Shown in pieces: positions 4,301 to 39,744 of a DNA stretch of 64,000 nt (position 1 is its first letter; each line of letters begins with the position of its first letter). This stretch comes from Membranipora membranacea. Lineage: Eukaryota > Bryozoa > Gymnolaemata > Cheilostomatida > Membraniporidae. Location of the stretch: the NCBI GenBank assembly GCA_914767715.1, contig OU612066.1, forward strand, positions 31,532,283 through 31,596,282, written 5' to 3'. Made by a program: the position numbers and the translations under genes. The notes under the pieces are model-generated. The model did not search any database. It was not told the DNA's origin and worked only from the letters and a program-made list of their open reading frames with translations.

Positions 4301-5785
4301 CTAGATCACATACAAGGATAATATTGATAGGGCGCTTGAATGTTCAAGGTACTGATGGAATATAAATGCTAAATGGAAAAATTTGTCAGTTACCTCCTCT
4401 TCTGCTCTGAGGAGACAACTCATAGTGTTTCTAAATGTTGTTGGTTTGTTTTGTAAACAATGAGCCTGGAAAAAAATATTCACATTAACACAAACTGACC
4501 ACGAGACCAACTTTCATGAAGTAGGTTAACTCCTGTCTTGCCTTGTCTTGATTTACATCGAGGGAAATACAACATATATTGTGTTATCAGAGTGTGGGCA
4601 CCCATAGTGCTCAAGGTCCCGGAAAGCAAGCATGCACTTGCCTCATATGGTTATCAATTTTGCATGACAAGACCTGGTACATTGATGCGTGTTTTGGCTT
4701 TCTAGATGGGTGTTGGTTTATACTGAACGTGTTTTCGATGAGAGGAATGCTATTGTATTGGGACAATTGTAAATAAACATAGTCATCCTCGTTTTACACC
4801 AAATGAGCGTTGATCGGCTAACCTAGTGTCACGTGGTATCACCTGATTGGTTCATGGACTGATATTGTACTGATTGTTTGCAAGATGACTGGCTTTGCAA
4901 AATTTCGAAAGGGTGTGCAAAAATTGTCAGTGCGTTTAAATTCTCAGGAATGAAGCTATTTTGAATGTAAATGTGCCTGCATCCATTGCATAGTTTAATC
5001 CTTATTTTGGCTTACATGAATTGGAGTGGCAGGATCAGGAAGCTCGGTGCCGAGCGCCTAACAAATTGTGGCTTGTTTCCCCAGGTTGATGGATTGGATA
5101 AGATAGAATGGACTGTAGCCCATAAATGCTACAGGATATAATGGAAAGCTTTTTACTATCATGCTATAAGAGCCAAGCTGCAGCAGTGGTTAGCGCAAGC
5201 ATTTATGATTGAAAACCTTAAGATGTTGCAGATAACAGTTTTGAAATATGTTGGTGTTGGAGCCTAGCATTTTCATTGCAACTTTGAATCAGACCATGCC
5301 GGTTCTCTCTTATTTGCTTTACATTTATTAGCATTTTAAACACACATCACTGCTCAACACGTATACAATGATATGCCCTAACATAAATATTTTGATTTGC
5401 AAACTCAAATGTATACTGGTCTGGATATACAATGGACTTTTTACAAAGAATAAAGATTCGACAATGCATGATTAAAATCCGGATAATTAGAGTATAATGA
5501 GCAAAGTATTTCATATGCAACAACTAAAAAATGAGTGAACGGATACTCACCAATATCATCAAAGCTGTGTTCACAGCTTCGACACTTAATTGCCAGATTG
5601 TTTGTCTTAGGAGACCTCAGGCGAGGAGTACCACAGTTTGGACATTTCCCATCAGCTGACTCTGGCCATGTAAGAGGGCTGCCACAATATATACATTCAG
5701 CTGCATATGGAGGCACCTGGTCTCCACAGCCAGGACATTCACCAGGAGTGGTCACAAGCAGAGATTTTGGTTTAAACTCTGACAT
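1394..5785 (-). CDS. Zinc-ribbon and coiled-coil repeat protein, five exons, 3' end outside window
   Basis: Exons read right to left: 5785-5551, 4221-4090, 3539-3256, 2956-2920 and 1665-1394. Each junction is GT-AG and the phases agree (1,1,0,1,0), giving 320 codons without a stop. The first exon starts at an ATG after a splice-like CAG (so a 5' UTR intron is possible). It encodes two C4 zinc ribbons, CPGCG...CIYCG and CPNCG...CRSC. Exons three and five encode related ~92-residue helical, charged modules sharing ELKSKVD, VARAI and a DPIK-Q core, which look like a duplicated exon. Zinc ribbons of this type usually bind nucleic acid or protein. I do not recognise the family and assign no function. 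The gene continues past 1394 by a GTAAGT donor, so the C-terminus is missing. Confidence 0.75.
1666..2919. other. Intron of the zinc-ribbon gene
   Basis: AT-rich intronic sequence between the 37-nt exon and the last visible exon. It contains a repeat related to 1035-1135 (about 2070-2155) and to the fold-back arms (about 1855-1890). No exon is supported inside it. Confidence 0.5.
3790..3915 (+). repeat. Degenerate tRNA-derived SINE fragment
   Basis: A box A-like stretch (TAGCACAATTGGTTAGTGCG) is followed about 45 bases later by a box B-like stretch (GTTGTGGGTCCAAGTCC). This is the spacing of a tRNA-type RNA polymerase III promoter. The sequence cannot fold into a clean tRNA and ends in a run of C. 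It lies in an intron of the zinc-ribbon gene. It is more likely an old SINE than a tRNA gene. Confidence 0.55.
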
Positions 5786-6294
5786 GCTCCCTGAAAAACA
5801 AGGCAAAAACATATTCACCATACAGACACTGATGCGCAGCCAAACCTGTTGAGTTATCACAATTTTTAGACAGACCGAAAAGTTTCTTGTTATCAGCTTC
5901 TGGTCAAGTGTGTGGTAAAGGTATATAGACTATTGTCAGAAGCCAATTATCATTCAGGTCTGCAGAAAAAAATGAGTATATACCTTGTTTTGATTGATTC
6001 CTATGTAAAAATTTATGGAGATTTTAATGGCATAGGTGTACCATAAATATTCTGTCACTGAAACTAAAGATTCCAATTTCTCTTAAATTTAAGGAGTTGT
6101 CCTCCTTTTTTAATTCATTTTTGCTAAAATAACCATTTTTCTAAAGTCATTATGAGTGACTGCATCTGACAATCGTTTTGGATGTAAGATCTTAGCCTAT
6201 TTTTTTCAGAATGTGGCTGGATGATTTGAGAATTTTGTTTTTATTAGAAAATGTTGCTTTCTGCATCATGCAAGCAGGTTTTGTCCATAAGTAG

Positions 6295-6567
6295 GATGGA
6301 GTGTGTGTGCCATTTAGAGCATCAAGGCTCAGTGGCACCCTAGTACCACTGAGGAGTGAAGAAAAGCTGAAGAAAGTCATCAGTGCTGCTGAGAAATGGT
6401 CAGTCTTAGATAAGGAGCCACAGGCAACTGTGGCAAAAGCCATCATATCATCAAGAGAAACCATAACTATTGACAGCACAACAATGTATCATCCAGGATG
6501 TCTGCTCAGATTTGCTAGTGATAGCAAAATACAAGCAGCTGCAAAGTCAACCAAAAGGAAGATAAAA
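6295..6567 (+). pseudogene. Exon of a transposon-derived Cys/His-module gene (5' half)
   Basis: An open 91-codon exon between AG (6294) and a GTGAGT donor at 6568, phase 0 at both ends. It encodes a module with a CVPF start, charged helices and a YHPGC motif near its end. The same layout (Cys pair, helices, YH-x2-C) appears in the exons at 24332-24985. The donor phase matches the acceptor phase at 24332, so the two were probably adjacent exons of one gene before the 17.4 kb element inserted in the intron. Upstream exons were not found. Function unknown; such modules occur at the N-termini of multi-copy, transposon-related proteins in marine invertebrates. Confidence 0.5.
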
Positions 6568-6720
6568 GTGAGTGCTTACAAATCAAACCTGTCCCTTACC
6601 TTACTAGTGTACTTTAGTTACACTATAGAAATGTCTAGTGGTCAGCACTGAATTGAATTTCTGAAATAAGTTTTTGACTCAATTTTCCATTAAAATGCAA
6701 GTGACCTCTGGATCACCAAC

Positions 6721-6729
6721 CAAACTCAC
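6721..6729. repeat. Left 9-bp target-site duplication
   Basis: CAAACTCAC immediately before the left terminus, repeated immediately after the right terminus. It resembles CGAACTCAC inside the termini themselves. Confidence 0.85.
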
Positions 6730-6790
6730 CGGTAGGTACGAAAAACCGAACCACGAACTCACAAGCTACGAACCTTTAAAAAACCGAACC
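6730..6790 (+). repeat. Left terminal inverted repeat
   Basis: About 58 bp starting CGGTAGGTACG. It contains repeated CGAACC / CGAACT words and is matched in reverse complement at 24073-24130 and in direct orientation at 29738-29789. Confidence 0.9.
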
Positions 6791-8580
6791 TTCAATGTGT
6801 CTGGTAACATAATTTCGTCCAATGATGATCTTTGTAACAAAATGTCAAAACTTTGATGAACAGTTATCCTCTCTTGCACTTTGGCAAATGGTAGAGGACA
6901 ACTCCAATCCCAGCAGAGAGTTTAGGACATAGGAGCAGGGAGAGAGGGAAGGGAATAGGGAGGGGAGCAGGGAGTTTGTCTCCGACTGAACAAAGAAGGG
7001 AATTTTGTTCTAGAGAAGACGCCAGGCTAGATCATGGCTTGAACGATTTCAAGATCGAGACAGAGGTTCCGGAGAGCTGGGAGCCACCAAGTTCAAACTT
7101 AGTGATTATTACCATGGTGGTGCGACTGATCCTGGAAAATTGAGTGATTATGCACAAATGCACGCAGTGATCCTTTTACTTACTAAATGATGCTTGCAAA
7201 TACTCTGTTTATGTGATCATTGCACTGTTTGAGTGATAAGGTGATCCAAGCAGATAACATATTATATGCGCATTCAAATAAAGGTAATGGTTCAGAGAAG
7301 AGACTGTTGATGGTGTTTACACGTGTATTCAATGAACTTATTTGTATATTATGGTGCCTGAAATAGAGGCAAGATGAGAGGCAGACAAAAGGCCTGAGAG
7401 AATAGTAATGGCTCAGGTGGATTATTACTGAAGTGTGAGCATTCATGGCTGTGAATACACATGTGATGGTAGACCATTGGGGACATAAAGCAGTTCCTAT
7501 CCAGTGGCAATGTATGTTGTTAATGACAGTAAGCTAACTATCAAGCCATAACTGTTGCACACCAGCTATCACGAGGTTTGTGCTGTGTCTTCTGGTACTG
7601 CGTAACTAAAAAAAAACAGAAAATATCACATTCAAATTCAAAGAGATGTGTTTGATATTATATGTCATGTTATTATCAGTTAAAATTTATAACTCACTTT
7701 TTGCTCACTGCGCTCTACTCATAGCTTCAGGGCAGCATGAGGCAAGCTTCCCGTTTCGTCATTGACGGTTAATATTATTTGCTTTTTTATGGCTAGTGGT
7801 GACTGGTGAAGCTCACACCACATTACATCTATCAATCATGCTCGGCTGGGATAAAATGAATAATACACCAATTAATTTTGGTACATACCTGACCCAACTT
7901 GCAGCTTAATTACAATGTAGTTGGTTTACACGAGGCCGTTGCAGAAGACTAGGATATTATCATTATCAGTTTAGTCCGGGCCACCAGAGCTTGAACCTGA
8001 ATTCGTTACACAGCTATAGTACAGCATTGAGCATGTTAGTCTGACCATCTGACCAAAATAAGAAAAACAGGCATTTTTTGGTATTCTGTGGTACGAGTCA
8101 GAGAAATCAATAGCTGAAGTTGTAATGAGTAAGGGCCCACATTGATATCTACAAACACAAGATTTCTTATGTTAGTTATTGCAATATGCAGTTAATATAG
8201 TATTTGCCTAACCACTTTCATAGAATCATTTCATAGATGATCAAGCTAATATAAATTACAGAGAGGCAACACTGATCTGATATCTCTTAGAGTAGCACGA
8301 AATGCTGTATGTAAGACCTAACAGTTATAGATATATAGTAAATAAGCTCAATTTTTTATAGAAGAATTATAATGTATATTAGAGGTCCTACTTCCCCCTC
8401 ATGCTTTGTTTGAACAATGAACTAAACTGAGGTTTAGTTCATTCATTGGTTTGAAACCAAAGAACAGCCATGAACCTTCAAAACAATATTTCAAGATCAC
8501 AGCATTCCACCACAGCTGAACATTCAACTATAAATTCATGAATCATGAGTTGTCTTCCCCTTTCATCATTTTTATAACTT
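6791..8580. other. Left subterminal region of the 17.4 kb element, no gene seen
   Basis: AT-rich sequence with a purine-rich stretch near 6935-6975 (GGGAGAGAGGGAAGGG-type). No exon chain with consistent splice phases was found. Short open frames here look like chance. Confidence 0.4.
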
Positions 8581-8584
8581 TTCT

Positions 8585-8720
8585 AATTTTAATAATAATA
8601 TGCTTTTAATAACTGAATTTAACTATAACAATCCATCTAAAATATTTCATCAGCCAGTATTATAATAATGCTTTTAATTACTGATTTTAACTCTTACACA
8701 CCCATCCAGAATGTTCCCTG
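8585..8720. repeat. Short tandem duplication, unit about 70 bp
   Basis: The block with TGCTTTTAAT-ACTGA-TTTAACT and CCATC(T/C)A(A/G)AAT occurs twice in tandem. A related CATCAGCCAGTAT block recurs near 21726. Confidence 0.6.
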
Positions 8721-8776
8721 TTTCCTGCCAGTCTGCGCATGTGCGAACTGTTGAGGCATACGTTCGTCTCTGCAGC

Positions 8777-10977
8777 ATAGGTCCAACACCTCTATTTATT
8801 TCCCCATTGCTTTACATGCAAACTATGTTGACTTGTCACCTCAATAGGCCTGCTTCAGGTTCTTTCAATTCTTTAACCATAGCACTCAAAATGATGGTAT
8901 TCTTCTGCTCTTCCATATTGGTGACTATGGGTTGAAAATTCGTTGCCAGAATTTTTCAGTGGCCCCATATGTAAGACCATTGCATTTATCACACATTTCC
9001 GGTCTAATTTCCATTAGCCAAACCGTATGCATTGATCTTCCAAAAATGATTTTGCAAAAAGAAATTTCATAATTTAATTCAATAAATTTCCATTGCAAAT
9101 ACACCTGACAATATTAACAGGGTTCAATATCACTGATAGCAGTGCTTTTGAATTGGCTACAGCCTCATTTGTCATCATCATACTAATCATTTTATTTTGG
9201 AGGATGGGTGCAACAAGTTGACCTTCACCCAATTACAGGTGTATTACCTAATAGTGACCGGACTGACGGTAACGGGTCTTCAAAGTTGGTCACATACGAC
9301 CTTTGTTGGTACGCTAGCATGGTGCGAAGTTCGGAGGCGATCCATCCATAGCGTGACTGGCCACGGCCATTTGACCATAAGACCGTTGCCCTCAAAACTC
9401 ACCTTGTCAGGCTTTGCTCCCTTATTGGTCTCTAAAATGGTATCTTGCTTAGGTTGCAGCTTACAGATATACAATGTTCATGACCATCATTGGCAAAGTC
9501 TGCAGCGACGGCTCAGGTTGTCTACAGACATAAGACAGAAGAGATGTTAAGCTAAAGTGTGACGTATACATGTCATTTGGAAGTAACTTTTCCTTGTCAA
9601 GCGGGGAGATAACTTCAAATAATGACCCATTGACTGAAGATATAGTTGTTTATTGAGTAATGGGGTGGGGTTTTGACCTTCAGAAATGCATTCAAGGAGA
9701 CACTCATTAATTCAACACACTTAAATCTAGTTAGAGTCTTATAAAGAAGAAGAGAGAACAAGTCCGGACTTGCCCGACAGGTGCAAATTCATGTGCTGTA
9801 AGCACCAGACGAAGTGTTTTATGAGGTTAAGATATAGTATAGTCATATTGATTGAGGATTGGGGTGTAATATTGGGGTTCGGGGTTGGCAGCCTGAGGTA
9901 TGTGAGCCAAATTTGGGGTTTTGGGGTCAGCTTTTGGGGTTTAGGGGTCAGGTTCGGGGTCAATATTTGGGGTTTGCAGTTAGCAGTTTTGGGCTTGCAG
10001 CCTACACTCCCGGGTTCACGGCCTACTTTCTGGTGTTTGGGGGTCATAAACGAGGGTTTCGTGTTTAGATGTCAGTTTTTGGGGTTTGGGGGTCATTTTT
10101 TGGGGTTTGAGGGTCAATATTTGGGGTTTGCAGTTCACACTTTGGGGTTTGCAGCTCACAGTTTGGGGTTTGCAGCATGAATGAAGTTTGGGGTTTGCAG
10201 CTCGCATTTTGGGGTTTGTAGCTTGAAGTTTTGGGTTAAAAGCTGGCAGTTTTGAATTTTTGGGCTCAAAAGCGGATTCAGGGGTCAACAGTTGGGGTTC
10301 AACACGACGACATGTTGCTCAACTAACCCAGCACTCTTTTCCATCACATATCTTCTTAGTACCAATATGATTATGTTAACCTAGTTCATACAGGACAAGC
10401 CACCAGCCCACCCCCCCCCCCATGCCCAACCCTACCGGTGCCCACCAATGTCACCAACCCTTAAATGTTCCATAACCTACCCAGCCAGGTCACTGAATAA
10501 TGTTTTTCCTTTGAAGTTGCTATATTTACTGCAGTCAGCTGATGGTGCAAGTTTGTCTGCTAGTGCTACTATTAGGTCCAACACCTCTATTTATTTCCCC
10601 ATTGCTTTACATGCAAACTATGTTGACTTGTCACCTCAATAGGCCTGCTTCAGGTTCTTTCAATTCTTCAATTTTTCAGTGGCCCCATATGTAAGACCAT
10701 TGCATTTATCACACATTTCCGGTCTAATTTCCATTAGCCAAACCGTATGCATTGATCTTCCAAAAATGATTTTGCAAAAAGAAATTTCATAATTTAATTC
10801 AATAAATTTCCATTGCAAATACACCTGACAATATTAACAGGGTTCAATATCACTGATAGCAGTGCTTTTGAATTGGCTACAGCCTCATTTGTCATCATCA
10901 TACTAATCATTTTATTTTGGAGGATGGGTGCAACAAGTTGACCTTCACCCAATTACAGGTGTATTACCATAGGGCTT
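8777..10977. repeat. Pair of direct repeats flanking a 1.3 kb insert
   Basis: 8777-9240 and about 10574-10970 are nearly identical, starting AGGTCCAACACCTC and ending CAGGTGTATTACC. The second copy lacks about 76 bases present at 8877-8952. The 1.3 kb between the copies holds a G-rich minisatellite and a short region with no recognisable gene. The high identity points to a recent duplication inside the element. Confidence 0.85.
9863..10300 (+). repeat. G-rich minisatellite (TTTGGGGTTTGCAG-type units)
   Basis: About twenty imperfect units of 18-25 bases built around TTTGGGGTTT, alternating with GCAGTTCACAC / GCAGCTCACA spacers. Runs of GGGG spaced by a few bases would allow G-quadruplex folding on the + strand. 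Open frames across it on both strands are repeat artefacts. Confidence 0.85.
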
Positions 10978-11220
10978 GAACTAATTCACCTAAACTGAGT
11001 ACCACAGGTTTAGTCAGTGCGGGGCGATCATGAATATTTTTTCTTAATCTGAAGATCATCAGGTTTTTCTGAAACAAATTTGAATGCAATAAACAGTTCT
11101 TAAAACTGTAAAATCTATTATAAAAAAACTTCATGATTATTTTTAAACTAAAAATTTGTGGTTGATGCATCCTTACTCAAAAGAAACTTTAAGTTGGATA
11201 AACTGTCGATTGTATTGCAG

Positions 11221-12688
11221 AGCCAGCAGAAGAAGAAAACTTACTAAGAAAAGAGTTCTCAATTTCAAAGTTGTGGTAAGTTATGAAAGAAGTGAGTTAG
11301 GATCCAAGGAGAGGCTTGCTTGATCTGTGTATGATCAAGCAAGCTGCTCCTCCTTGGATCTTGGAGAAACTACTTGGTAGGATAAAGGTTAATGCAAGCC
11401 ATTGAATTCCAATCATGCATTGCTGTACTAACTCCGACTCACTAGATATGTATATATATATAAATATAACAGTGATTCAATGTACTTGTGGTTGAAGATT
11501 TCAATGAATCTGAATAATATGATATATATGTAGCTGGATAGCTATGTGAAGTCTTTTCTCTATTACACAAAGTATTAGTAATAAAAGCTGAGTAAGTGGC
11601 TAGGAGTACAATAACTCTCTAGTCTAGTCTTTCCCTGATTTTGTTTCTGCATTGGATAGGTTCTGAACCTGAAAGAAAGTAATAATACAACAACTAGTGT
11701 CCTCATCATATATTATAATCCCATTTTAGCCTGCCTCTCATCATATATGTGTGGTTGTAAGCAAAAACATGTTGTGGCAAAGTATACTTTGTTTGTTCTA
11801 CTAACAAAACAAAACCATCTACCATCCCATTTCTGTTGCAGGTTTTCCTCCAGACTGTTTCTCAAGCATCGTATTATGAGTGAGGTAGGTTTGATGAATA
11901 AAAACCAGCACCTGGCTTAGTACGAGTGTGTCATTTTATTGCCAGGATAAAGGATATCATGCTCTGAAAATTAATATCTAACATTCAAATAGAATGTATA
12001 TGTAAATATGATTTGATGACCTTAAAACCATTGCATACGCCCTCGTTGGTATAACGGACAAAACGCAGTTGTGTTTTTACCAATTACTACTAACTATGAG
12101 TAAACCTTTTGCACAAAATAAATTCATTGATTATAACTACTTGAAGGCAACCGCTGGTTGCCCATGAAAATATCAAGCATAGATCAATCTGTGGATCTAA
12201 ATATGGTGACCCTGGTCATGCAAAAAAAACATGTGCATCTTGTGTAAAGGGTTTACAACAATGTATATTATTTTGCTTTTCTTCAAAGTTGTAGCGTTAG
12301 TGTAGAGAGGATTGAAGTGATATTCCTTTTACCCGTGATGATACAAGTCTTCACAAATCAGGCTGCGCTCCATTGTTTCTCCATAAATATGCCATTGAAA
12401 CATCCATTTCCCTACTTAACCATGAAAGATCTTTGAATATGCTTTAAAGGTGAGTCTTTCTTCCATAAAACCCGCAGCTATCTATCTTTTTTGCTGTTCA
12501 CCACCAAGTTAAAACGTTTGTTGTTTTGATTCACGTGAAATGGTTTTCTATACCTTGCAGATCTATTTCTATTCAGCTGAATGTAACTGACTCCATACTC
12601 TGAGATATCACAACTTGCTAAGTTGGCTGTTTACACTTTTGTTTTGTAGGAAGAAATTATGAGAGCAACATCGATCCCAGCTAAGTAG
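11221..12688 (+). CDS. Putative 3' exons of a small gene inside the element
   Basis: Three short exons, 11221-11275, 11842-11884 and 12650-12688, each have good acceptor and donor sites. The phases agree (2 then 0) and the frame ends in a TAG. The C-terminal peptide contains HRIMSEEEIMRA. AATAAA-like words occur near 13008. No upstream exon or start codon was found, and the exons are so short that chance agreement cannot be excluded. Confidence 0.25.
11301..11360. repeat. Hairpin
   Basis: GATCCAAGGAGAGGCTTGCT pairs with AGCAAGCTGCTCCTCCTTGGATC across a 7-base loop. It lies just after the donor site of the 11221 exon. Confidence 0.6.
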
Positions 12689-13678
12689 GCTTAACGGGAA
12701 ACAGGCAACAGTCTATAGATAATCTATCACGACACAAGCAAAAGTCACGGATAGAAAAATAGTTCACCATATGACGTTCACATCCATATATTGATATTTT
12801 ATTTTATTTATTTGTATACTATGTACATCACACGAGTTTAGATTAACATCTCAAGTTTACCAATATATTTTTATTATACAAGTATCATATACTATGTAAC
12901 ACTCTGCTATTTGAAATTTTCTTTGCACTTTGTGTAGAACTATATTTATTTGCAAGTGTGCACGGTCGGTGGTAACATTTTGATTATTTATTAGATTTCT
13001 AAGTTACAAATAAATACTAAATACTAATAAAGATTTTGAAAATATATCAGTGATACTTGAAGATGTGGCAACATTGAATAACCCAGATGTTACAATCAAG
13101 ACATCAGCTCAATAACACACAGTCATGTGATTTCCCACTGAGCCAACAACACAACAAAATCCTGGCATGTAGAAAGTACAGTTATCTGGAGTTGTCTTTG
13201 CTTGGGTTGTGAGAAGACAACTTGGCACTAATTATAATATAAAAGACCTACATTTTGGATTACTCATATATTTTTTTGTAACAATAATACAAAACTACAC
13301 AACAATATTGATCCATAGGTTTGTGATTAAATGGTTATAAACATTTATGGCGGATATTGCATGGCAACTGTTTTTTTTTTCGGTTTTAGCAACTAGATAC
13401 CCCCACCCCCCTTGGGAACAACACATTTACAGTTGGCATTGTAACTTAAAAAACAGATGGCATAGCGAATTCATCATCTGCAGTTCAGTTCCCACCTGAA
13501 ATATGCCATCCACATAAATGGTGTTCATCATAGGGTCTGTGTTGGCATGGCTCATTTTCCTGTCAACATTATCTTTAGGAGTTGTTTCCTTTGTAATATA
13601 TACAGGACAACTCCAATTTTACAAGATTATTTTATTTCATATTTGTCTTAAATTGTATCTCTTTTCGTTTCAAAGGAG
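12689..13678. promoter_or_regulatory. Upstream region of the DUF6589-like gene
   Basis: About 1 kb of AT-rich sequence between the putative upstream exons and the ATG at 13679. A TATA-like AATATATACA lies near 13596, roughly 80 bases before the ATG. No start site can be fixed from sequence alone. Confidence 0.3.
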
Positions 13679-16600
13679 ATGACATTTTGTACTGCTGCTA
13701 GCTGTTCCAACAGTTTTAAACAGCGGAGGTTTCCGATATCGGAGAGTGCACCAAAGGCTGCCAAAAGAAGAAGATGGGTTATGGAGAACGATGGAGTGTG
13801 TGTTGAGAAGAGTTGGCTATGTTATAGCTGTAATAAAAAGGCAATGGATGATCTATCAGGTGGGTAATGAGAAACTTGCAATTGAGATTATACTGCCTTG
13901 AGCTGTAAATTAATTAGAATCAATACTACAGTTGCAATCGTAACTTGGTGATTTCTTTTTTTAGAAGGACCTGCGACTCTTAGCAAAGGCTACCAAGAAT
14001 TGACAAATGCGGCTGAAAACCGTTATGCTGCTGGTGTTGTAAAAGTGAGTGTTGTAACATTCAGTATTACGTAACAGTTGATAATCTATAATTGATAAAT
14101 CTATGATCAAAGGTAATTTATTATTGATTAATGATGAGCTTTGGTAAACATTATCATTTGATGTTCTTTATTGCCAGGCTCTCAAGAAGATTCCAGAGGT
14201 GCAGGAATTGCTCCTGAAGGATTTTCTTTCTCAAATTGAAGAAGAGGTGACCTCACTAACAAGCATGGTAGAACCCAGTAATCTCAGGGAGGCTTTGACT
14301 CCAGCCAACCTTGACAGTATCTTGACAAGCTCCTGCAAAGAGTTTAGGGAAAGGAGCCCAAAGTTAGCTGCGGTTTTTCGACAAGCCTCGAATACAGGTA
14401 ATTAAATACTTTTTGCATCAAATAGGTTCTCTACTCGCAATTTTAGTGCTGCACTTGCAGCTATATGCGTATCATTTGACTAGTTACTTCTTTGCCAGCT
14501 GTTAGTTTTTCACAACAAATTATTCATCAAATGTATTATTTTGTGTTTCTGTAGATTCAAACCAGAAAACAGCAATACTGTATAGTATTGTCCTCTGCTC
14601 AAGGGCCAAGGAGCTTTGCATGATGAAACGAGGTTTCACAATGCTATTATCCTCACTAGGAGCCACAACTACCTTGACTGAGGCCCTAGTGCCGTATGGG
14701 CTGACTGTGGCTAGTGGAACCAAGATCAAAACACTGGATGCACTTGGGGAAGGCTACATCTGTGAGAGAGTAGCTGATCATCTAAATAAAGGAGGAAGAA
14801 TTGCTACTGTTTGTAAGTAGCTATTTGCATGAAGTGTTTATTACGAGGGCATTTTTTAATCTATTATTTAGAACCAACCTTGTGCATAAGACAGCTTCCA
14901 CATTCATTACTAGCTATCATTCACCAAACATCATTTCTTGATACAAGCTCCAAATTTATCGTCACAGCTGATACTTACTGTATACAACATAAATACATAT
15001 AGTATACATAGTACATAAAGTATTTGTCTTGTAGCTGATAACATCAACATCTGTGTACAGAGGGAAGTGGAAAGTCTCAAAAGAGCATCAAAAAAACAGT
15101 ATAATTGGATATACTGGTGGATACGGTCTATTCCCACTCTGCCAAATGTGGATATGCCCATCAGTATTCAAGGTATATATCTACATCGTGACAGCAAGTG
15201 AAACATTGATTCTTACGAACTCTCTTGGAAGGCCCTATTAATTGAAACACTGCAAGATATGATTTGTTTTGATTATTTCATTAGTATTTATCATTTCTTG
15301 CACATTTTCCAGCACCACCACAAGCTGCATTGTTCATGCTAAACAATCTTGAGGAGTCAAGGCTGGTCGAAGTATATTCTATACTGGTAGCAAGGATACT
15401 GACGGAGTGTTTTGAGAACATGACAAATACAACTCGGTGGGCTCCAAAACAGATAATTAGGTGAGTGCACTTCGTTGTCAATGGAGACTCATTTAATTCA
15501 GGGATTTATGGTTAGATGTTATGGACTGAAAGTGTACAGATATCATTTTACCCACAAATTAATTGTAGGTCTGAGGTCAAGACTGCTTTATGGTCAGAAG
15601 ACACCAAAGTGTGGCCAATGCCAGTAGAAATGAATGATCAGATGAAGATCGGTGAATGCACCAAGTTCTTACTCACATCAACAAGGAAACTAGATGCCAT
15701 CTATGATAAGACCGACAGTAAGTAGGCAACATTATCTCATTACAACATATATATGATAATATGAAATAATATACAGGTGAGACGGTGCCGCAAGTAGAGT
15801 CACCATTTTGTAAAGCTTTGACCCAAAATAATAGCTGAGGACCAGGAAATACTCAAATAAACATAACATAACTTTTACAATTTGTTTTAGGAAATATTAC
15901 TCTTGAACAGCTGCCAAGCTATGGCGACCAAATGACGAGAAAGAATCTAGATTTGGCAAAGGGAATGCGGGTGGATTTTGAAGGTGCAGTAGCCGGTCTC
16001 AGGATTCAAACTCCCCTGCTGTGTGCACCATGGCACATCAAACAAGATCTTTTGGAGGTGAGCTCCAGATGTACAACGTTTACGGTTATGTGCTTATATT
16101 TAAACCTAATGTTTTAGTCACATATTAAAAAATACCATGTCTGATAGGATGGTGTTCACATAAATATGATGTTCACTTTCAGGTTTATTTTGTTATTTAC
16201 AGAAAACGTATAAGAAAATGTATGACGAGAAAGAGTCAAGGTGCTATGGTACTATAGCCAACCTTAAGCATGTACTGAACAGAGTGAGAGTCACCGGTGC
16301 TGTCAAGGGGAAGTTTAGGGCTCATGATGACTATTTCAAACTGGTAAGGAAATGCAGCAATCGGTTATAAAGGAAAATGATTCAAAATAATATATCCCTG
16401 GGGTAGAGGATAGGAGTTTAAGCGGTAGCACTATACGCCTGAACAAATTGGCAACTCGCTGTGTCATACTTGAAATCAATAGACAGCGATGAACACCACT
16501 TTATTCATTACCAGGTTATGAAGAGTATTGTTTGTTCCGCTGCTATGCACCATCTGCAAATGGAAACTTTGGAGGACACAGTGGTTGTACCAGATGTCAT

Positions 16601-18183
16601 GGTTGTCGCCAGAGAAATAGTTACACGCTACCTTTATTCATCATTACAAACAGGTAGGTCCAATAAATAGTTACAGCATGTCAAAATGTAATTGTTCCTT
16701 GCACCTAAGAGTTGTTGGCCCCTTGGAGGAGAGGGGATGACTGCAAATATTCTAAGCGCCAATTTCAAAACGGAGTTTTACTTATTTCAGGGGAAAATGA
16801 CAGCAGCATATACAAATCTAAATACAGTACCCAAGAAGAGCCACCGACAGATCACTGCTACTTCCAGCCTGCTACTGACACAACAAACGAGGTATGCTGT
16901 TGCTTAGCACTACTAACTTCATAATCATTAAGTTATTGTCATAAGTTCAGGTGTTGGGACTAGTCGACAAAATTGTTATCATTATTTGTCGAGGATATTG
17001 TCGTAATCCATGTCTACAAATCCCGTTTATTTTTTGTATAGGATGGATGGCATAGCTACTATAGATGCATCGCAAACTATGGCTTGCATTACCTCAACAT
17101 GTGTGATACCACGGATGAAGGAGACATAGAAAGATACCTAATAAACACCAAACGGAATCTGGAGCTATTTCTAAGTTACAACAACAACAGCAAGTATGGT
17201 GCTGAGATGGTTGACACTATTTTCAAGCTTCAGCACAAGCTTCCTCAAGAGTCAGCTAAATCGGCATTGGCTGGTGAGTATGGCTGTAAAAACATATTTA
17301 TATCAACGACTTCATCAGATAACAAAATTTTATTAAAATCCCTTGATAGTAACATACAAAAATGATGAAATAACAAACCATTGCATATAACAGCAATACT
17401 CATTAGTTGTGTGCCAGAGAAAATTCCCGCCATTAAAATTGAACAATGTGAAACAGATATAACACAAAAAAGTTGTTACCTTACAGGTATGTACGTCAAA
17501 ACTAACGGCGTAATTAAAGAAGTTGACCTGGAGACTGAGACACATGTGAAGAAAGTAAAATTGATGATAAACTCCTTAGGTGCTAACAAAGAAAACGAAT
17601 CGGCAGTGCAAAGAATAACAGGTAACAGATAACATCTTCTGTTAAACCAACTGATAAAAATAAAGCAAAGCCAGATTGTGCAACTGATTATGACTCGGTG
17701 TTGGAGCTATTTATATAGAAAAATTGTATCGAATTACAGGATGTGCAGCGGCTCTCCAAAACATACAGAAGGTAATGACAGTGAAAAGAAGAAGTTATAG
17801 AAGTAAGATTTCCAAGAGGGCAGATTTGGAGGTAACAGTCAAGTATATAAACAGACTGAAGCCGTGGATGTTCAAACAGAGGATATGCCCAATGAGACTT
17901 ACGACATTCAAGGATAATGGCAAGGAAATCATAGAGGAGAAAATTCAGGGACTTATCTTCAACCAGCAAGTGTTCAATGGTGAGTACCTATTCCTACAAA
18001 AAAATAATTTTCCATGGATATATGACACAAAAACACAAGTTAGGTCAAACTTTCAAAGTCTTCAGTATCAAGTGAGACTGCGATGAAGTTAGCATGAGTA
18101 GATAGTTATTTCCCTAGCACGCGGTATCAAAGTGGTAGGAATGGTCTTAGATAATTCAGGTTTTTGTTTTTGTTTTAGAATGA
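13679..18183 (+). CDS. Intact DUF6589-like protein, candidate transposase, 808 aa in 15 exons
   Basis: Exons: 13679-13859, 13965-14044, 14178-14397, 14555-14812, 15035-15172, 15313-15460, 15569-15717, 15891-16057, 16203-16343, 16515-16653, 16791-16891, 17042-17273, 17394-17621, 17740-17979 and 18179-18183. All junctions are GT-AG, all phases agree, and the sum is 2427 nt ending in TGA. The N-terminus has Cys pairs (FCTAASC, CYSC) that may bind zinc, and a basic KRRR stretch. The middle has ATVSDNINICVQ, then PSYGDQMTRKNLDLA, then DGWHSYYRC, the order I associate with DUF6589 proteins. That match is from memory. Asp residues in DNIN and GDQ would fit an RNase H-like site, but the third acidic residue is not identified. 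The gene is convergent with the helicase gene; their stop codons are about 20 bases apart. Absence of any frameshift suggests recent function. Confidence 0.8.
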
Positions 18184-18201
18184 TTGAGGCATCATTTAAC
18201 C

Positions 18202-20897
18202 TTAACATACCTCAGAGCTTGTAGAGCATGAACTGCAGCAGAGCACAGAACTACCTCGATAATCTGAAACTTCCGTCGATGGCGAGCCATAAGCTGTATA
18301 GAGATGTTTCTGGAGGAAAAGAACAGAAGAGTTATGTCCACATATTTTTGTATCTTTTTATTCCATCAGTGTTGACTACAAAAATCTGACTAAGCCGGTT
18401 AAGAACCTTTGCAAAGATAGATCATTATTTTTTATATCCCTTTTTCAATGAACTGGCATTTTGATGATAATATCATAAAAAAATAATTTTCTTGTTCGAC
18501 TGAACCTATTTTCTGTCCAGTATACCGCTATGTTAGCCAATGCTCAACATCAATTTTGTTGATGTTATATGCTTGTTAATATATACCCGCAAACATGATG
18601 CTTGAATCAAAGCCTTCATTTCTTTCTTGGCTTTTCCAAGTTCGATATTGCTGTAGTGAATGGTGCAAGTACAGGTGCCGCCATCCCGGCCACCTCTTCC
18701 AATCTGCTGCACTAACTCCGATGTGGCTCCAGGGGGCTGCATGAAAATTATCTGACGGATATCTTTGATATCCACACCCAAACCAAAGGCAGAGCTCGCA
18801 ATAACTATACGATGACTGTAACACAAACAGAAGGTTACTCTTTTACTGCAATTGAGTGATTCCAACAGTAACCCGGACAAAAGTTTAAGCACTAATATTA
18901 TAATCATTCTTAGGACACTGTCACAACATGCCATTATCCATAACCGCAACAGATGGCTGCATAAAGCTGATGTTAAAAACGGAAGATACATACTTATATA
19001 TGGATGTCCCACCTGCTATTCTCCTTACACAGCTCATCTAGAATAGCTTTTTGCATCTCAGCATCTGTTTGGCCATGAAACTGTATCACTAGTTTAGCAC
19101 CAGCCCGCTTCACACCGTCTACAAATATGTGGGCAAAAAAGTATGAAATGGGTGTAATAATGGAATGTGCGGCGAAGATTAGAGTTTTGGGGTAGCTTTG
19201 TTTTTGGTTACAAATTCTTTCAGCGATTGGAGTTAAAATTGAGCGTAAGGCTTGATCAGTCCGATGATGCTTCTGTTGGATAGAAAAATAGAAACGGCTG
19301 AAGTTGTGAGGAAGGTTGATGATAAGAGGAGATTTGAGCATGAGTTGTTTGGAGACAGTCTGTAATGTATCTTTGTGAAGTGTGGCACTAAGAGCAAGGA
19401 CAGTTGGTTTGGAGATGGAGAGCTGACATATCAGTGCCCCAAGAGATCCAAATGCCTTTCGAAAGGTTGTACCCCTGCAAAATAAGACAGATATATCTGG
19501 ACGCTCTATTTGAATGCAACAATAATTTCACAGGTGATAATCAATTAACTCATGTTCTATACAATGTCTTAGCTTCATGAAAAGTCACAGAGATTTGAAC
19601 AGATAATTAAGGCAAACAATTTAGCGAATATGGACACAGCTCTCGGGCCTACCAGTTGTAAATAGCGAATGATGTCACATACCTACAACCTGTGAGTTCT
19701 AACTACACTGGTTACACAAGTTCAGAGTTCGATCTCAAAGCTCTCAATTTTTTGAACATCAAACCCTCTGTGTTTACCCGGGCTTGGGACCGGCTGAAAA
19801 GTGATTATTTCACTTTTCAGGCCACATTACAATGAATTTTTGTGTGAAAGCCACCTATCTTCAATCTCAAAAACACAGGAGAAATTTGGTGTGATCGAGC
19901 AACGGCATGGCAGACTGTCAAAAAACCTTACTATGCATATTGCATCAATACTGGTTTGCAGAAGGGTGGTTGGAGCTGAGTATCGATAGTCAGAGATGAG
20001 AAGCATTTCGTTCTATAAAGACTCTCCTGAAAACTCGCACCTGAAACTGCAACAGAAATAGCAAAAGATAGACAGTAGGCCAATAGGCTAATAAATTTGG
20101 AACAGCCACAGAACGACCAGAACAGTAGCCTACCTACCACTCCAAAACTAGATGACATTCATCAACTACTACACATCCAATTTGTATCTTTTCTTTTTGT
20201 ATTATGGCTTTTAGTTCAGCAGCATGTTCTGGTAGGGTAATGTAGTAATTTACATCTGATGATTCCTGTATTTCTACATAAGAGAAAAAAGGTCTTATTT
20301 TAGGTCATTTATATTGCTACAATGGTACAATACTAAAAGTTTCATGAAACGGCCAGTCATAGGCATACAATAACACGCCACTGTACAAAGAAGACAATAT
20401 GCAATGCACTATCATTTCCTCAACAGTGTCCCAATTCAAGCAAAATGTACCAAACAAAGAGGAGAAAATAATCACCTTCTCCAAACAATTTGGAGTTTCC
20501 CACAACACGAACACCTTTTCCTCTCAGTTTTCCTAGTTGGTCGATAATCAGGGCATTCGTTGGCAAAACAATCACAATGGGCAGAGCCAATATGAAAGGG
20601 AGTACCTAAAACATAGTTTTGTTATTTGACATACCTGACCAAACATATCATACACTCCATATATAGAGGGATTGAATTATTACACATAATTATTGCACAC
20701 ATTTAGACATTTAGTTCAAGTATACATGACCTGAAGAATGGCCCCTTAAATAACACTCACCCAAAATATCAGAGATTTCCCTGCTCCTGTTGGTACATGA
20801 ACAACCGTGTCCCTTCCGCTGATCAGAGAGCAGAGAGCATCTTTCTGGAAGGGATGAACCTTGGCTACACCAAACTCTTGATGGGCAAGCTGATCTA
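18202..20897 (-). CDS. RecQ-like superfamily 2 DNA helicase
   Basis: Exons right to left: 20897-20761, 20605-20478, 20273-20138, 19474-19013, 18815-18587 and 18309-18202, all GT-AG with agreeing phases. Motifs in order: Walker A PTGAGKS, motif Ia VLPTNALIIDQ, motif II VVVDECHLVLEW (DECH), motif III LALSATLH, motif V VIASSAFGLGVDI, and motif VI QQIGRGGRDG. The C-terminus has a CCSSC cluster like the zinc-binding subdomain of RecQ. No HRDC domain is present. About 400 residues are visible. The first exon is uncertain: the frame stays open upstream to 20988, where an ATG exists, but the AG at 20898 looks like an acceptor. The enzyme should unwind DNA 3' to 5' using ATP. Its place inside the transposon, tail to tail with the DUF6589-like gene, suggests a role in moving or copying the element. 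Confidence 0.85.
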
Positions 20898-21167
20898 CTG
20901 CAAAACACAGCCACATAGGATGGTGATTACAGTGATAGTGAGTGATAGTGAGTGACAGCATGGGCCACAGCTGCCTACTGACAGTCACAATGTTCTGCTC
21001 AAACGAGAGAAGTTCTCTCTATGAGATATAGCACTGGCAGGGAAAGGGCTATTTCCCTAGAACCAATAAGGAGCTACTCCTTGCTAGAACATCAAATTAT
21101 AATCAGTGGCACTGCTTCCAATTTACGCTCTGGCTGGTTGACCAATAGTAGGATCAAGGAGTAACAG

Positions 21168-21261
21168 CATGGGCCCCTGGGACTTGCATGTCTTTACTTT
21201 GCCAATGTCCACTATAGTGGACATTGGCAAAGTAAAGACATGCAAGTCCCAGGGGCCCATG
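21168..21261. repeat. 94-bp perfect palindrome
   Basis: Two 47-base arms meet with no spacer at the centre CACTATAGTG. Imperfect pairing continues outward (GTAACAG and ACTCCTTG blocks). It lies just upstream of the helicase gene. It could extrude as a cruciform, or be an assembly or foldback artefact. Confidence 0.9.
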
Positions 21262-22214
21262 AGTAACAGGGGCTATTACTCCTTGGTAAGTAGGATGTAT
21301 GTGTACTGTATGTATATATGTACTTAGAAAGAAGTAACCCAATCCAATGTGTTCTTAGCAGAGATGAAAGAACACATGAGATCATGCTCTGTTAACATTC
21401 ATACTCACTTCTTTGAGAAGCCATCATCTGTCTCTATCTCTCCTTTAGTTTCAGTTACTTACTACAAGTGTACTTCCTGACCTTTGTTGTTTACTCTTAG
21501 TTATTTTACTACAAGCTGTTTCATTATCTTGTATAGTAATAATGGCAAGCTGCGCATTGGCTGATGTAGTCTAAAAAATTTACAGAGCTAACACCTTAGA
21601 GGTTCGAATAATGCATTAGACAGAAAAGTTGTCTGCTCCTTGATCCAGGCAGCGCCACCGTCGCTATGCTGCAGAGATAGACTATGTCTCAAGTCTAGCC
21701 TGCAAGCAGAATGGTTTCCTGCTGTTGCATCAGCCAGTATCATATTACATTATGCTTTTTATAACTGAACATCAGAAGAGTCTAGTCAGTTAGTATGTAG
21801 CAGCTGAAGCAACAAGACCTTATATTTTCAAACTAGTAAACAGATCACCAATAAAGTGCCTTACAACTGAACACAACATATTGAAGTAAGTTTCTTGAGT
21901 TCTGCCTGCTGGCAGACCTCCCTGCCTTGACATAAAGTTGCCTTGTTTGTAATCTGTTGTTAGACTGTAGCCTCCCTTGGGTAGTAGGTAGAGGCCAAGT
22001 GAAAACCCCCATTGCACCACTGCATCCATTGTCCTGATTGCCAGTCCAGTCCAGTTCAATCTAGTCCAGTTCCAGTCCAGCCCAGTCTAGTTTTCTCGCA
22101 AAGATAGTTGTAAACCCAGAGCCATTCCCTCCCCAGATAAATAAGCCTATCTTTGTCCACATATTCCCCCCCCAAAGCCAGCCCCAAAGTCAGGTCAATT
22201 ATATTCCCAGCCCA

Positions 22215-22400
22215 GTTAGAGTCGTCGTACTCGTCACCCCCCCCCCCCCTCAGTTAGAGTCGTCGTACTCGTCACCCCCCCCCCCTCAGTTAGAGTCGTC
22301 GTACTCGTCACCCCCCTGAGTTAGAGTCGTCGTACTCGTCACCCCCCCCCCTCAGTTAGAGTCGTCGTACAGGCAGATAGAGAGTCGGCGTACTCGTTTT
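22215..22400. repeat. Tandem repeat with poly-C spacers
   Basis: Five units of AGTTAGAGTCGTCGTACTCG followed by TCAC and a C run of variable length (6-11), then degenerate AGAGAGTCGGCGTACTC copies. Run-length variation suggests replication slippage. Confidence 0.9.
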
Positions 22401-22545
22401 AGAGAGTCGGCGTACTCAGTATAAATAGGCAATGGGCGTGGTTGCAGTGGCGGGTATCGCCGCCTTAGGGTAACCCCCTCAAAATCCTCTACAATAGGCC
22501 AACACCCATCGTACATACTTGTTAACTCTGTTGAGATGTGATGAT

Positions 22546-23891
22546 TCAGGTGGCAGCCTTCTGCTCCTCCTGTGACGAGTCAAAGGGGCTCCAATTTATT
22601 AAACTGTGACCATTTCTAATAAATAAGTGAGGTGTGTCCTCCATTACAGCCTTCTGTAGTAGCTTCTGATATGGAAATGCCTCAGCTCCTGTTGCTCTAA
22701 ATCTAAAATATTCCTTGTTTACTTTTTACTACTAATGATAAATAATGACTCGCTAAAAATAGCCTATTAATGTGAATGTTTTCTGATCAACTTATTGTAT
22801 ATAAGTAACATGTGTATAAGTGGAGGAACATGCAGAAAAGTACTTGTCACATTGTAAATGATAGCCTGTGATATGATATTGATTTTATGTCAATGCCCAT
22901 AATGTATTATGCTTTTATGAATTAGTAGGCTATAGTAAACTCAAGTGCATTTAGGACAGTTTCAAGTGCATTTAGGACAGTTTTTCCAATGCGCCTATAA
23001 AAGGAGCGGCGTGGCTTTGTGCATCATGATTTAGTTATCAGACTTCATTGTGGATGGTTGAATTGTGAGAGCAATAAACTGTTATTAACATAATAAGTTG
23101 TTTATATAACTGAATTGTCCCGAGTAACATTTAGGACTGAGCCTGACCTAGTGTCTATAATTCAGTCTCTTTTATCTTGGTATATCACTATTAACAGCCT
23201 GGCCTAGTGCCTATAATTGTTAGAGTGGTGGCTTGCAGGATAATTCCACTGGCAATTACTCCGTTGAGCACAAAGGGTGGTTGACTATAGTTGTAAGCCT
23301 GGCTCCAATGCCTATAATTTACATCATAGCTTTTCCATTCTTCGCAGTCGCAGAGGTTTGACTATAGTTGTAGGCCTGGCTTCAATGCCTATAATTTACA
23401 TCATAGCTTTTCCTTTCTTCGCAAGTGGCAATATTATTGGCGGATTGACTATATTTATTGCAATATAGGTCTTTGGTTCTCTGCAGTGAGTAAGGGGGCT
23501 CAACGCCTTATACAACTCCTCATTCTGAGTAACTGCAATTGTTGAGGTGAGAGCCAATACTCACTGGATCATCAATTGGGCTTTGTATGAGCCGGTTTTG
23601 AGTTGCGTAATGGATTGGCAACTCGGTCAGTGTGCTTGAATAGACACTGAAGCTTTCTTGTTCTGGTGGATTTATTACAGTAACCCTCGTGCCTAAGCTA
23701 CCAAACTGATCACAAGAAGGGTGTAGTAATCAAGAAAATCCAGAACACTCCACATACTTCCATCATTTTCAAACTTGCAGGAATATATAGTCAAACCATT
23801 CCTCTCTCCAATACAAAAGTTCATTTGGATTCATCATGACTAATTTGACATCTGCTTGGTGTGTACCAAACTGTGCCATCTTGCTCTCCAT
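22546..23891 (-). CDS. Putative third gene of the element, incomplete model
   Basis: A 39-codon first exon (23891-23775, starting MESKMAQFG) would join in phase 0 to a clean 47-codon exon (23705-23565, containing VTVINPPEQESF and a GTGAGT donor). A likely last exon at 22696-22546 contains PHLFIRNGHSLINW and ends in TGA. The donor of the first exon (GTTTGA) is weak, and the exons between 22700 and 23560 are blurred by local repeats. I do not recognise the protein. Confidence 0.3.
23160..23465. repeat. Tandem repeat, about 75-bp units
   Basis: A block with TTGACTATAGTTGTA(A/G)GCCTGGC, AATGCCTATAATTTACATC and ATAGCTTTTCCTTTCTTCGCA occurs as two near-identical copies (about 23277-23355 and 23356-23430), with shorter diverged copies on both sides. 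Confidence 0.8.
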
Positions 23892-24072
23892 AATTTTTCA
23901 TCAAGTGACTTTGAGCTTGTGCACCTAGTTAGGATGCAATGAGCTCTATTAAAAGTCAAAGTTTGATATCTGTTATATTATTGGTCACGTATCAAAAACA
24001 TGACATTTCATTGGCCACTGACAATTCAAACTTTGAGCAAATTGATTTAAGCAGGAGAGGATAATCCTGAGT

Positions 24073-24130
24073 TTGGTTTTTTGAGGGTTCGTAGTTCGTG
24101 AGTTCGCGGTTCGGTTTTTCGTACCTACCG
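24073..24130 (-). repeat. Right terminal inverted repeat
   Basis: Reverse complement of the left end, finishing CGTACCTACCG at 24130. It is followed by the second CAAACTCAC. Confidence 0.9.
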
Positions 24131-24139
24131 CAAACTCAC
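24131..24139. repeat. Right 9-bp target-site duplication
   Basis: CAAACTCAC, identical to 6721-6729. Confidence 0.85.
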
Positions 24140-25567: not shown

Positions 25568-26890
25568 CGATGATGAATTATAACTATGTATTGGTAGCAG
25601 CGTATGCACGTTATGTGTTTGAACCTTTGTTTTTTAGGCAGTTAGTAGTATAATATTCTTTTGCGTAGGTCGTCAGTACATATTCTAATAAGTTACAGTA
25701 TTGACAGCTGCCTTTGCTAATAATATCAGTACAGGTACTCTCAAGTATATATTTGTATAGTTATTATATTTATAATAGTATGTGACCACTTTTCATGTAC
25801 AGCACATATACTCTTGGTCATTTACTAATCGCATGGGTTTTTAAATTTGTCAGAAATACACCAGTGTATTCCGAAAATGGTTAAATTGATAAAACTAGGA
25901 GTTTTCTCCTCAGACTATGCAAAAAACAATAATACATGCCATATTTTGTAAATATGAGTAGAAATTTAGAAATATATTGTGCCAAGACATCCTCAATAAT
26001 AAGCCTAACCTTGATAAATCAAAAAATATAAAGGCCAAAGTAGTCAAATGCAATTAGATATTTAAATATAATATAAGGGGGACAAACGCTGACGCTGCCT
26101 CTCTCTGTGACACTTTTTTTACGGTGCATGATGTTGGCTGTAATTAGCAAATAAAATTACCCCGGAAAAAACAAAGTATATACTCATTATTTTCTGCAAG
26201 AGGAAAATTTTGAACACTTCTGAGCCATCTGACAATAGACTTATAGCATATCCGATCTGATTAAATTATCAAGCATGCAACGCAACATAAGATAAGGCTT
26301 TCCAAATTTGGAAGTTTTCGTAAATGTGTAGAAACTTTGGTCTGAAGTTGAGGCCAAACATTAACATGGCAAGGGCCGCATTTGAAAGGAACAGGACACA
26401 CGTAAAATGGTTGCAAAAAGTGTGAATAAGATGGAGTGATGTCAACTCAATCCAGCACTTAGATTAAATTGTGTCCCTTTGAGCTTCCAGCTAAGTCGTC
26501 AGTGCCGTGAAACATTGTCGCTATCATATCCTGAACCATTGAGGTTGTAATATAGTATGTGACATAGACTTTTTTACGCCCGGCTGACTCCACGTTTAAC
26601 AAATAATATATACAAATTCGACCCAATTACAAACTCCAAGTCTTGCTCAATCATTCAGATCAGGTTGATAACATGCAATGTTTTGAGAGGATAGGTCACA
26701 TATCCGTAGGTAATAAAGTTAAGTGACAGTGACAGCAGTGTTTATCTTAATGTATTTATAAATCAGGATAATAGCAAAGTATTCTGCTGGATAAATATCT
26801 TGCTCTGACTTCGCATACATAACGTTACGGCAGGAGAAACTAACATATAAAAGTCTGTTTGCTTCTAAGATTTGTATGATTAAGTTATTG
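25568..26890. other. AT-rich spacer, no gene seen
   Basis: No consistent exon chain, RNA gene or clear repeat structure was found. Confidence 0.4.
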
Positions 26891-28268: not shown

Positions 28269-29737
28269 GATAGTACGTACCAAGCTGTTTAGAGCAGGAT
28301 CATTTGTTTTCATCTACACTGTGTGATGTATCACATTGTTGTTTCCGTTGTCTGTAAGAAACGAAACGGATGACTACTAGTCATCAGCTGGCCCCAGGTG
28401 AAGGTGAAAATGTAGACTAAGATATTACCTATTATCTGTTGGTGTGCAAACTGGGGATCAAATGCTCATGGAAAAAAAATAAATTGGTTCCCATGCAACA
28501 AAGAAGGAATGTTTTTATTGGTCACCAATAAATTGTATGCGGCACTTGAGCACCAATAAAATGAATCAAGGAGGTGATAAGAAAGTAATTCAGCGCTGTC
28601 CCCAGGATTATCAGTGGAATGGTAATCAGAATAATAGAGGCACCATTTTAATGTAAGTGTACAAAATATACCTGGAAAATTTGAATGAGTGGCAAATGAT
28701 TAATTTCAATTGAGATAGCATTTATAAATTAACCCCTCCCCCTGCTGATCTTTGGCTGAGGAAGATAGACAACTATTGATGTCATGGCAGCACAGCTACA
28801 GCAATCAAATACAAATTATGAATCCCTAGTGTCAATATTGATTTGTACTGATATTTCAGACGAAAATTTGGCAAGGCTCCTTGTAGTTGTGGAGCGGCTT
28901 GCAATTCGATTTGACCCACTTTCCTCTTTACATCATCAAGCTGTTTTGGGTTATCAACATTAACCCACCATGACCTCAGCAAGATATCAACATTTAATCA
29001 AATAATTAAGTACAATAAAATGAATCAAGGAAGTTATTGACCTCATGAAAGAAACAACGTTGCTCAAACCACTGGCCGCTATACCTTAACGTTATTGAGG
29101 TCTTGTTAAGCAGATTGCAGACCGTTCAAGGGAAGCCACCTTCATCCCTCTTGTGAGTGATAGGCTATGAAACATACTTATCAATCAGGAAAGCATCATC
29201 TCATGTCTGCCCTACTTCGCAAAAACCCGCAGAATTTGATTACAGCGCATGTGAATCCATCTTGTGCGCTCACCAGACAAATACCAGCCTAAGTTGACAG
29301 CATTGTGTACAATTTCATTGATATTGTAAAGCATGAGAACTGATGACACGTTACGCACATTCTTGGTTTCATAGAAGTTACACTGGTATCTGCAAGAGTA
29401 GTACTCCTGTTTTTTTTGCGATGGGGGGGGGGGGCAGATGTGTAATCATATAAGATTTGATCTTGATCAGATCAGGGAGATCTGATCAGATGAATAAGGA
29501 AAGCTACCCAAAATTCCCAACAATATTATATGGCGAAATATGCTACTACTGCAGATGTCAATCCTAAAATGATGACTTGCAAACATGTGAGAACAAGGAA
29601 CGGTTTGTTATACCTGACACTCTATAGATATGATATTGCCACAGTTCTTAGTCTGCGTGGTAAGTTCTGGTTGTTCTGGTAAGTTCTGGTAAGTAGCACT
29701 CCTCCTGTCAATTCTCACTGTTGTCTGTCTGTTGGCG
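28269..29737. other. Spacer with poly-G tract and diverged short repeats
   Basis: Contains a G(10) run at about 29424 and repeated AAAATGAATCAAGGA-G blocks at about 28557 and 29017. No gene is supported. Confidence 0.4.
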
Positions 29738-29789
29738 GTAGGTACGAAAAAGCGAACCACGAACTCACAAGCTACGAACCTTTATATCT
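29738..29789 (+). repeat. Solo copy of the 17.4 kb element's terminus
   Basis: CGGTAGGTACGAAAAAGCGA... matches the left terminus for about 50 bases (one mismatch in the first 45), in the same orientation. CAAACTCAC does not flank it, and no inverted partner was found to the window's end. It may be a relic of another copy or the start of a degraded relative. Confidence 0.8.
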
Positions 29790-38538: not shown

Positions 38539-39744
38539 TGAAAAGGTTGGCTGTGTGGGTAATAACTGCTTGAGTGTTGAACACTATTGTTGATACGCCC
38601 TGATAAAGGCTTTATTGCTTGGATTCTATTGGATGTAGATAAGAAATGCAAACATGGGAAAATCCATCATCCATTCCACATGTTCACCAGGATATTCGCT
38701 AAATCTGTGAGTCACCAAACCATCACAGTTGAGCTTTCATGGTTATACTATACCGTATAGATGGGAGTATTTGGATTGTTCTTTCGGGTGCTAAGTTTTT
38801 CGAAAGTCATTGAATGGCTTTTTTATGGCGTGTTTATCTTGATTGCTTATTCCATTGTGCCCATGACGGAACAATATCTGGTCACACCAGGGAGAATGGA
38901 ATTCCATTCTCCCTGGTCTTACAGATGACTTGCTCATGAACTTCATAAACTTTGGCTGATGCATAATGATAGGCTGCTATGCAATGTCAAGATAGAAGTT
39001 ATGCTAACTTGATCAAAGAGCAGACAACCTCTAATGAGTAAACTGTATATTCAGGAAGTTCCCATGTGACTTCACTCGCCAGATCTCATTGTACAGAAAA
39101 TGTCTTCATCTCTTTATTGCAAAACATGATCATATTTAATGAAACATGAAAATCAATGTTATCGTTCTAATCTTATGGTTTTCAGAATTGAGAGAACACC
39201 ATTTGAATTATGGGAACTGAGACTGACGGACTTGACTGTTTTAATATTTGCACCTGTACATAACGTTTTAGACAATGCTGTACCAAAGATTTGGGTAAGA
39301 AAACATTCTTGGCTGCTAGCTTTTCACCTAGTCCATCACCTGTCACATGATTATAACAATCAACTAAACACCGGTGATATTTATGAGTATAATGATATAT
39401 AAAAAAGTATCGTGACGATCGCTCGAATGAAGTGGTAACTCCAAAACAGATAACTAACAATATTCCAATTCAAAGTCCTGGCCTTGATCATTGGCAAATA
39501 TTCATATATGTTTAAAATAATAATGTTACATTATAGAGAGCATGTGAAGTCTCATACTAGATGACATGCATATAATAATTGTTTGATTTTAAGTAAAGGC
39601 CTGGAAATCCTGATTTCTATATGGTGATGGCTGTACGGTGGTGTACTGAGCGTAATGGTTTTCATTAGATTTAATTCAATTTTCTAAGCACATAAATTAA
39701 TGTTTTTAATCATCATAATAGTGTTAAAATCCGCATTACTCAGC

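Follow-up and report, generated by a model that had tools for sequence, protein, structure and literature searches.

An AcademH-like DNA transposon of the bryozoan Membranipora membranacea with a RecQ-type helicase and a DUF6589 protein as its likely transposase

A stretch of 64,000 nucleotides from the genome of Membranipora membranacea (assembly GCA_914767715.1, contig OU612066.1, positions 31,532,283 to 31,596,282; in the following the window, C2:31532283-31596282 in the coordinates of our own-genome searches, which covered 339 Mb in 18 contigs) contains a DNA transposon that measures 17,401 bp between its outermost bases. This transposon is bordered by terminal inverted repeats (TIRs) and a target-site duplication (TSD) and encodes two genes, D for a protein with the domain DUF6589 and H for a RecQ-type helicase. 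We consider it probable that this is a full-length transposon of the AcademH kind, or of its close kin, in which both genes are open and protein D is the transposase. The element likely represents a new AcademH-like family, and the assignment of DUF6589 is the part of most interest within this known kind. An earlier inspection of the letters without database searches (sequence-only reading) had proposed a transposon, which was borne out by TIRs and TSDs at this site and in independent copies.

Matching inverted termini and, directly outside both, a perfect 9-bp duplication, CAAACTCAC, had been noticed in the sequence-only reading, and both were found again (Table 1). When the whole window was scanned for exact 8-bp inverted ends that lie more than 200 bases apart and are immediately flanked by 9-bp direct repeats, two cases emerged, the element with its TSDs at 6721-24139 and a stretch at 26866-29459. 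The outer 11-mer of the left TIR, CGGTAGGTACG, was present with at most one mismatch at three places in the window, against 0.17 expected. The third of these places, at 29736, is a solo left end of this family, 5.6 kb downstream of the element; a right-end partner was sought in the window and none was found. The second case of the scan, with the direct repeat TAAGATTTG outside the inverted ends TATGATTA, is possibly another small element, or chance.

Other copies were collected via the exact 11-mer, which has 180 places in the own genome; 100 of these were listed, 12 in a satellite array were dropped and 88 were used. The array at C2:8562412-8562566 has a 9-base period, contains CGGTAGGTACG and shows no visible relation to the TIR family. 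Among the matches listed, the 88 places formed 11 neighbouring left-right pairs less than 30 kb apart versus 3 in the reversed order. Of the eleven pairs, one is the window element, nine were read and one, spanning 26 kb on C3, was left out; together with a copy next to a further D-H locus (in L079), the nine make up the ten other copies. Exact TSDs of 9 bp flanked five of them (C1:19803667-19807455, L072, L074, L075 and L079, of which L079 was read by eye and has a change in one outer TIR base) and exact TSDs of 10 bp two (L070, L073), while one had a 9-bp TSD with one mismatch (L069) and two had none (L071, L076). Nine copies measured 0.3-3.8 kb, L069 7.6 kb. In element-internal numbering, with position 1 at window position 6721, the deletion joint 1777|15774 was common to seven of the ten copies, and the joint 15944|17028 also to seven, not the same seven. 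Since the joints are shared while the flanking duplications differ, the deleted forms were amplified, and therefore the enzyme was supplied in trans. These gene-less copies are a non-autonomous subfamily moved in trans; protein D, together with H, presumably supplied the enzyme for the deletion derivatives.

The sequence-only reading had described an unbroken gene of 808 codons. This was not confirmed: stop-to-stop frames within the element reach at most 177 amino acids, and gene D is a spliced gene instead (Table 1), with a last exon of few coding bases that ends at the stop at 18183. As a guess, the number 808 may come from a retained last D intron, where the frame 17694-18083 runs about 30 codons further. 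Most exon ends of gene D recur in relatives, as checked on the copy at C8:6.72M: most matched stretches stop within about 6 residues of the window exon ends, and some cross an intron. The gene models are supported by this coincidence of exon ends and match ends. Protein D matched the Pfam profile PF20231 (DUF6589) with an E value of 1.5e-33 and 116.6 bits against a gathering score of 27, residues 297-710 covering profile positions 9-398 of 410. All four relatives of D that were scanned, members of the alignment, matched the profile at E 0.01 or better, and three relatives were 48-53 % identical to the window protein. The residues D222, D248, D365, C436, H440, E600, E615 and E629 are among the invariants of the four-row alignment, and the cysteines C4, C9 and C48 near the N-terminus are kept in the rows covering them. 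Invariant acidic residues in four rows do not prove a catalytic triad. A nuclease function, as proposed earlier, is plausible, and D may be a DDD/E enzyme. Searches of a large protein database with D or with its alignment gave no homologs outside the own genome, scans of viral contigs gave neither a relative of D nor a TIR match, and a further ten frames within the element or next to it had no Pfam match.

The model of gene H ends at the stop at 18202; its 399 codons, counted from 20897, are those of the modelled exons. Two domains scored above the Pfam cut-offs, DEAD with E 1.4e-17 and Helicase_C with E 1.5e-12. By sequence, the closest solved relatives are RecQ (1oyw), WRN, Q5 and BLM; residues 2-372 align to 1oyw, which we take to be the RecQ of E. 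coli, at E 1.1e-22, with WRN, BLM and Q5 similar. H carries a DECH box followed by WGxxFRxxF, presumably a RecQ-like combination. It thus resembles RecQ, WRN, BLM and RecQ5 over most of its length and differs from the RecQ family in being short and in having no RQC or HRDC match in Pfam. Against the NCBI RecQ model TIGR00614 H scored 134 bits, below the curated cut-off of 219.8, and the DpdF model ranked just above it with 139.5 bits, below its own cut-off of 550. The stop codons of D and H are 18 bp apart, in agreement with the tail-to-tail arrangement of a DUF6589 gene and a RecQ-type helicase in the sequence-only reading.

The pairing of D and H is not confined to the window. Matching stretches in the own genome numbered at least 79 for D and at least 68 for H, and eight clusters contained both (the window, C8:6.72M, C10:1.26M, C2:39.51M, C8:19.71M, C2:8.82M, C11:6.56M and C8:16.15M). 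The genes are convergent in all eight, so that the earlier proposal of a linked module was upheld. D and H pieces on C7, which share a strand and are separated by about 19 kb, were left out of this count. D matches without a nearby H match were located at C6:5.80M, C3:32.09M, C4:9.05M and C3:6.68M and as pieces on C6; the locus C6:5.80M belongs to the window family and retains remnants of the H region according to blastn. H without D was present at C5:11.36M and as pieces on C11, and further H matches at 21-31 % identity are probably host helicases. The families of the clusters are about 50 % identical in protein. The copies at C8:6.72M, C10, C11 and C8:19.71M form one family with main DNA blocks 93-97 % alike, those at C2:8.82M, C8:16.15M and C5:11.36M another. 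Between families, the nonsynonymous divergence (dN) was about 0.4-0.7 and the synonymous divergence (dS) mostly beyond estimation, a pattern that suggests long-term constraint; within families, dN/dS ratios of 0.43-1.24 were obtained, as would be expected for copies mostly decaying. A right end of the second family (C8:6734833 / C10:1268564), guessed from the stop of homology, was abandoned, as no matching left end was found. At C3:32087157-32088943 (L013, L017, L028, L036) lies an intronless D relative of the C8:6.72M family with stops inside. Its alignment to the C8 copy consists of 12 blocks, near-contiguous in C3 and intron-separated in C8, and it apparently is a processed, that is reverse-transcribed, copy of a spliced transposon-gene message.

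That a DNA transposon comes with a helicase is nothing new, because AcademH and KolobokH, the latter with a RecQ, encode one. The available passages of PMC10045372, citing Kojima 2020, describe AcademH as a helicase-encoding Academ lineage with TSDs of 9 or 10 bp and AcademX as a lineage with a nuclease in place of the helicase and TSDs of 3 or 4 bp, a difference in length that seems related to helicase versus nuclease. DEAD and Helicase_C are among the domains listed from AcademH, KolobokH or Helitron in the part of PMC10799480 at hand. By these descriptions the element resembles AcademH in encoding the helicase between its TIRs, in the TSD length of 9 bp in the window and 9 or 10 bp in the other copies, and in both Pfam domains of H. 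AcademX belongs to the same superfamily as AcademH, and the element differs from the account of that lineage in TSD length and helicase. The sequence-only reading had considered the transposon type undescribed; this was not supported, given the published outline of AcademH. That the element is a KolobokH-like transposon, with a Kolobok transposase and a RecQ helicase, is very unlikely. In the accessible text of PMC9587614, the RecQ helicase of KolobokH is placed downstream of its transposase domain, and one Kolobok of a red alga has such a helicase on the complementary strand, a likeness to the element as a DNA transposon with a RecQ helicase; the same text, however, reports KolobokH from fungi only and gives the Kolobok TSD as the 4-bp TTAA, and the duplications of 9-10 bp, which are not TTAA, refute this reading.

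More weight has to be given to a separate lineage, although it is rather unlikely: a DUF6589 recombinase that has no relation to the Academ transposase would have joined with a RecQ helicase, and duplications of 9-10 bp would have arisen independently. DUF6589 would then be a transposase family of its own, with the dedicated RecQ-type helicase as a part of the machinery that sets the stagger of 9-10 bp. D and H are paired across diverged families, and no link of DUF6589 to Academ was seen. AcademH hosts are reportedly animals and fungi, judged from the title of Kojima 2020 (Mob DNA 11:15). DUF6589 was not named in the literature searched, which did not include that article; the domain may go by a different name there. 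Against a separate lineage, both AcademH traits in the published descriptions seen, the helicase and the TSDs of 9 or 10 bp, are present in the element.

Several results weigh against an AcademH-like transposon driven by protein D. The comparison to AcademH was made by traits described in the accessible sources, not by transposase sequence. The helicase of the element is a separate convergent gene, which may or may not be typical of AcademH, and no solved structures related to D by sequence were found. The exact 11-mer is also part of a satellite array, and reversing the pattern as a control still gave 80 matches versus 180 real ones. This background, like the two of ten copies without a duplication, would fit chance or an assembly artefact, i.e., unrelated repeats that mimic an element; such an origin is extremely improbable, refuted by independent copies, since seven of the ten have exact duplications of 9-10 bp with differing sequence, and the likeness of these copies extends well past the 11-mer into the subterminal region. 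The ten other copies had no blastn match to element positions 1778-15773, which include both genes, save a few joint bases. The sequence-only reading had named a lack of other genomic TIR pairs around the genes as a refutation, and here the outcome was mixed: pairs with proper duplications do exist, but the genes are missing from all ten copies read. The remaining loci with the genes are members of diverged families, for which the scans defined no ends. A scan of seven merged diverged D-H loci for duplications of 9 or 10 bp and exact inverted ends of 7 bp, with short flanks for most loci, revealed none around the genes; the sole case was a palindromic 10-bp duplication on C8, left of the genes. 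D and H may be passengers, captured between ends on which a different transposase acts in trans, e.g., a Mutator-like one. Mutator-like transposases make duplications of 8-10 bp. The gene-less copies and the failure to place these ends around any other D-H locus would suit this explanation, which we regard as improbable, more so than a separate lineage: no other transposase-like domain was detected in the frames scanned, a part of the frames of the element, and passengers would hardly be kept as an always convergent pair in eight clusters over diverged families.

For an AcademH-like element with D as transposase, we propose that D would bind the 60-nt TIRs, perhaps via its N-terminal cysteines, cut the ends and attach them to the target strands with a stagger of 9, sometimes 10, bp. 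In excision, strand transfer or repair, H would unwind DNA, be it at the ends, at the target or at the gapped joint. The helicase may have a role in transposition, which would proceed by cut-and-paste rather than in a copying mode. Should DUF6589 prove to be the transposase of those Academ elements that bear a helicase, a domain so far without known function would acquire a role, and genes carrying it would become recognisable as transposon genes, not host genes. A single genome offers one full-length copy whose two genes are both open, together with deletion derivatives that were moved in trans and several pairs of diverged genes, and because it holds all these forms the role of a RecQ helicase in DNA transposition is testable.

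Table 1 Features of the transposon and its surroundings (window positions)
Feature	Position	Strand	Remarks
Left TSD copy CAAACTCAC	6721..6729	.	read directly; identical to 24131-24139
Left TIR, 60 nt, outer end CGGTAGGTACG	6730..6789	+	54/60 versus right TIR; end recurs in other copies
Internal direct duplication, 8778-9248 / 10573-10968	8778..10968	+	99-100 % alike where aligned; one copy without about 75 bases
Gene D (DUF6589), probable transposase, 15 exons, 777 codons	13679..18183	+	14/14 introns GT-AG, one open frame
Gene D, exons 1-8	13679-13859, 13965-14044, 14178-14397, 14555-14812, 15035-15172, 15313-15460, 15569-15717, 15891-16057	+	
Gene D, exons 9-15	16203-16343, 16515-16653, 16791-16891, 17042-17273, 17487-17621, 17740-17979, 18179-18183	+	
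Gene H, RecQ-type helicase, six exons, 399 codons modelled	18202..20897	-	5/5 introns GT-AG, frame open
Gene H, exons	20897-20761, 20605-20476, 20273-20138, 19474-19013, 18815-18587, 18309-18202	-	
Right TIR, 60 nt	24071..24130	-	54/60 match with left TIR
Right TSD copy CAAACTCAC	24131..24139	.	read directly; identical to 6721-6729
Solo left end, same transposon family, outside the element	29736..29784	+	49 nt, 98 % to left TIR

Inside the element, the direct duplication encloses a tandem array of the GGGGTTTGCAG type at 10078-10237 and is probably a later rearrangement or a nested insert. A perfect palindrome of two 47-nt arms with no spacer was located at 21168-21261, parts of which recur at C8:19.71M. 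Beyond the element, the frame at 40853-41800 contains an RVT_1 fragment (E 8.6e-22), the sole Pfam match among ten flanking frames; this reverse transcriptase fragment probably belongs to a retrotransposon. The stretches 37379-42811 and 57539-60649 are two diverged copies of a longer repeat, about 70-78 % alike in pieces.

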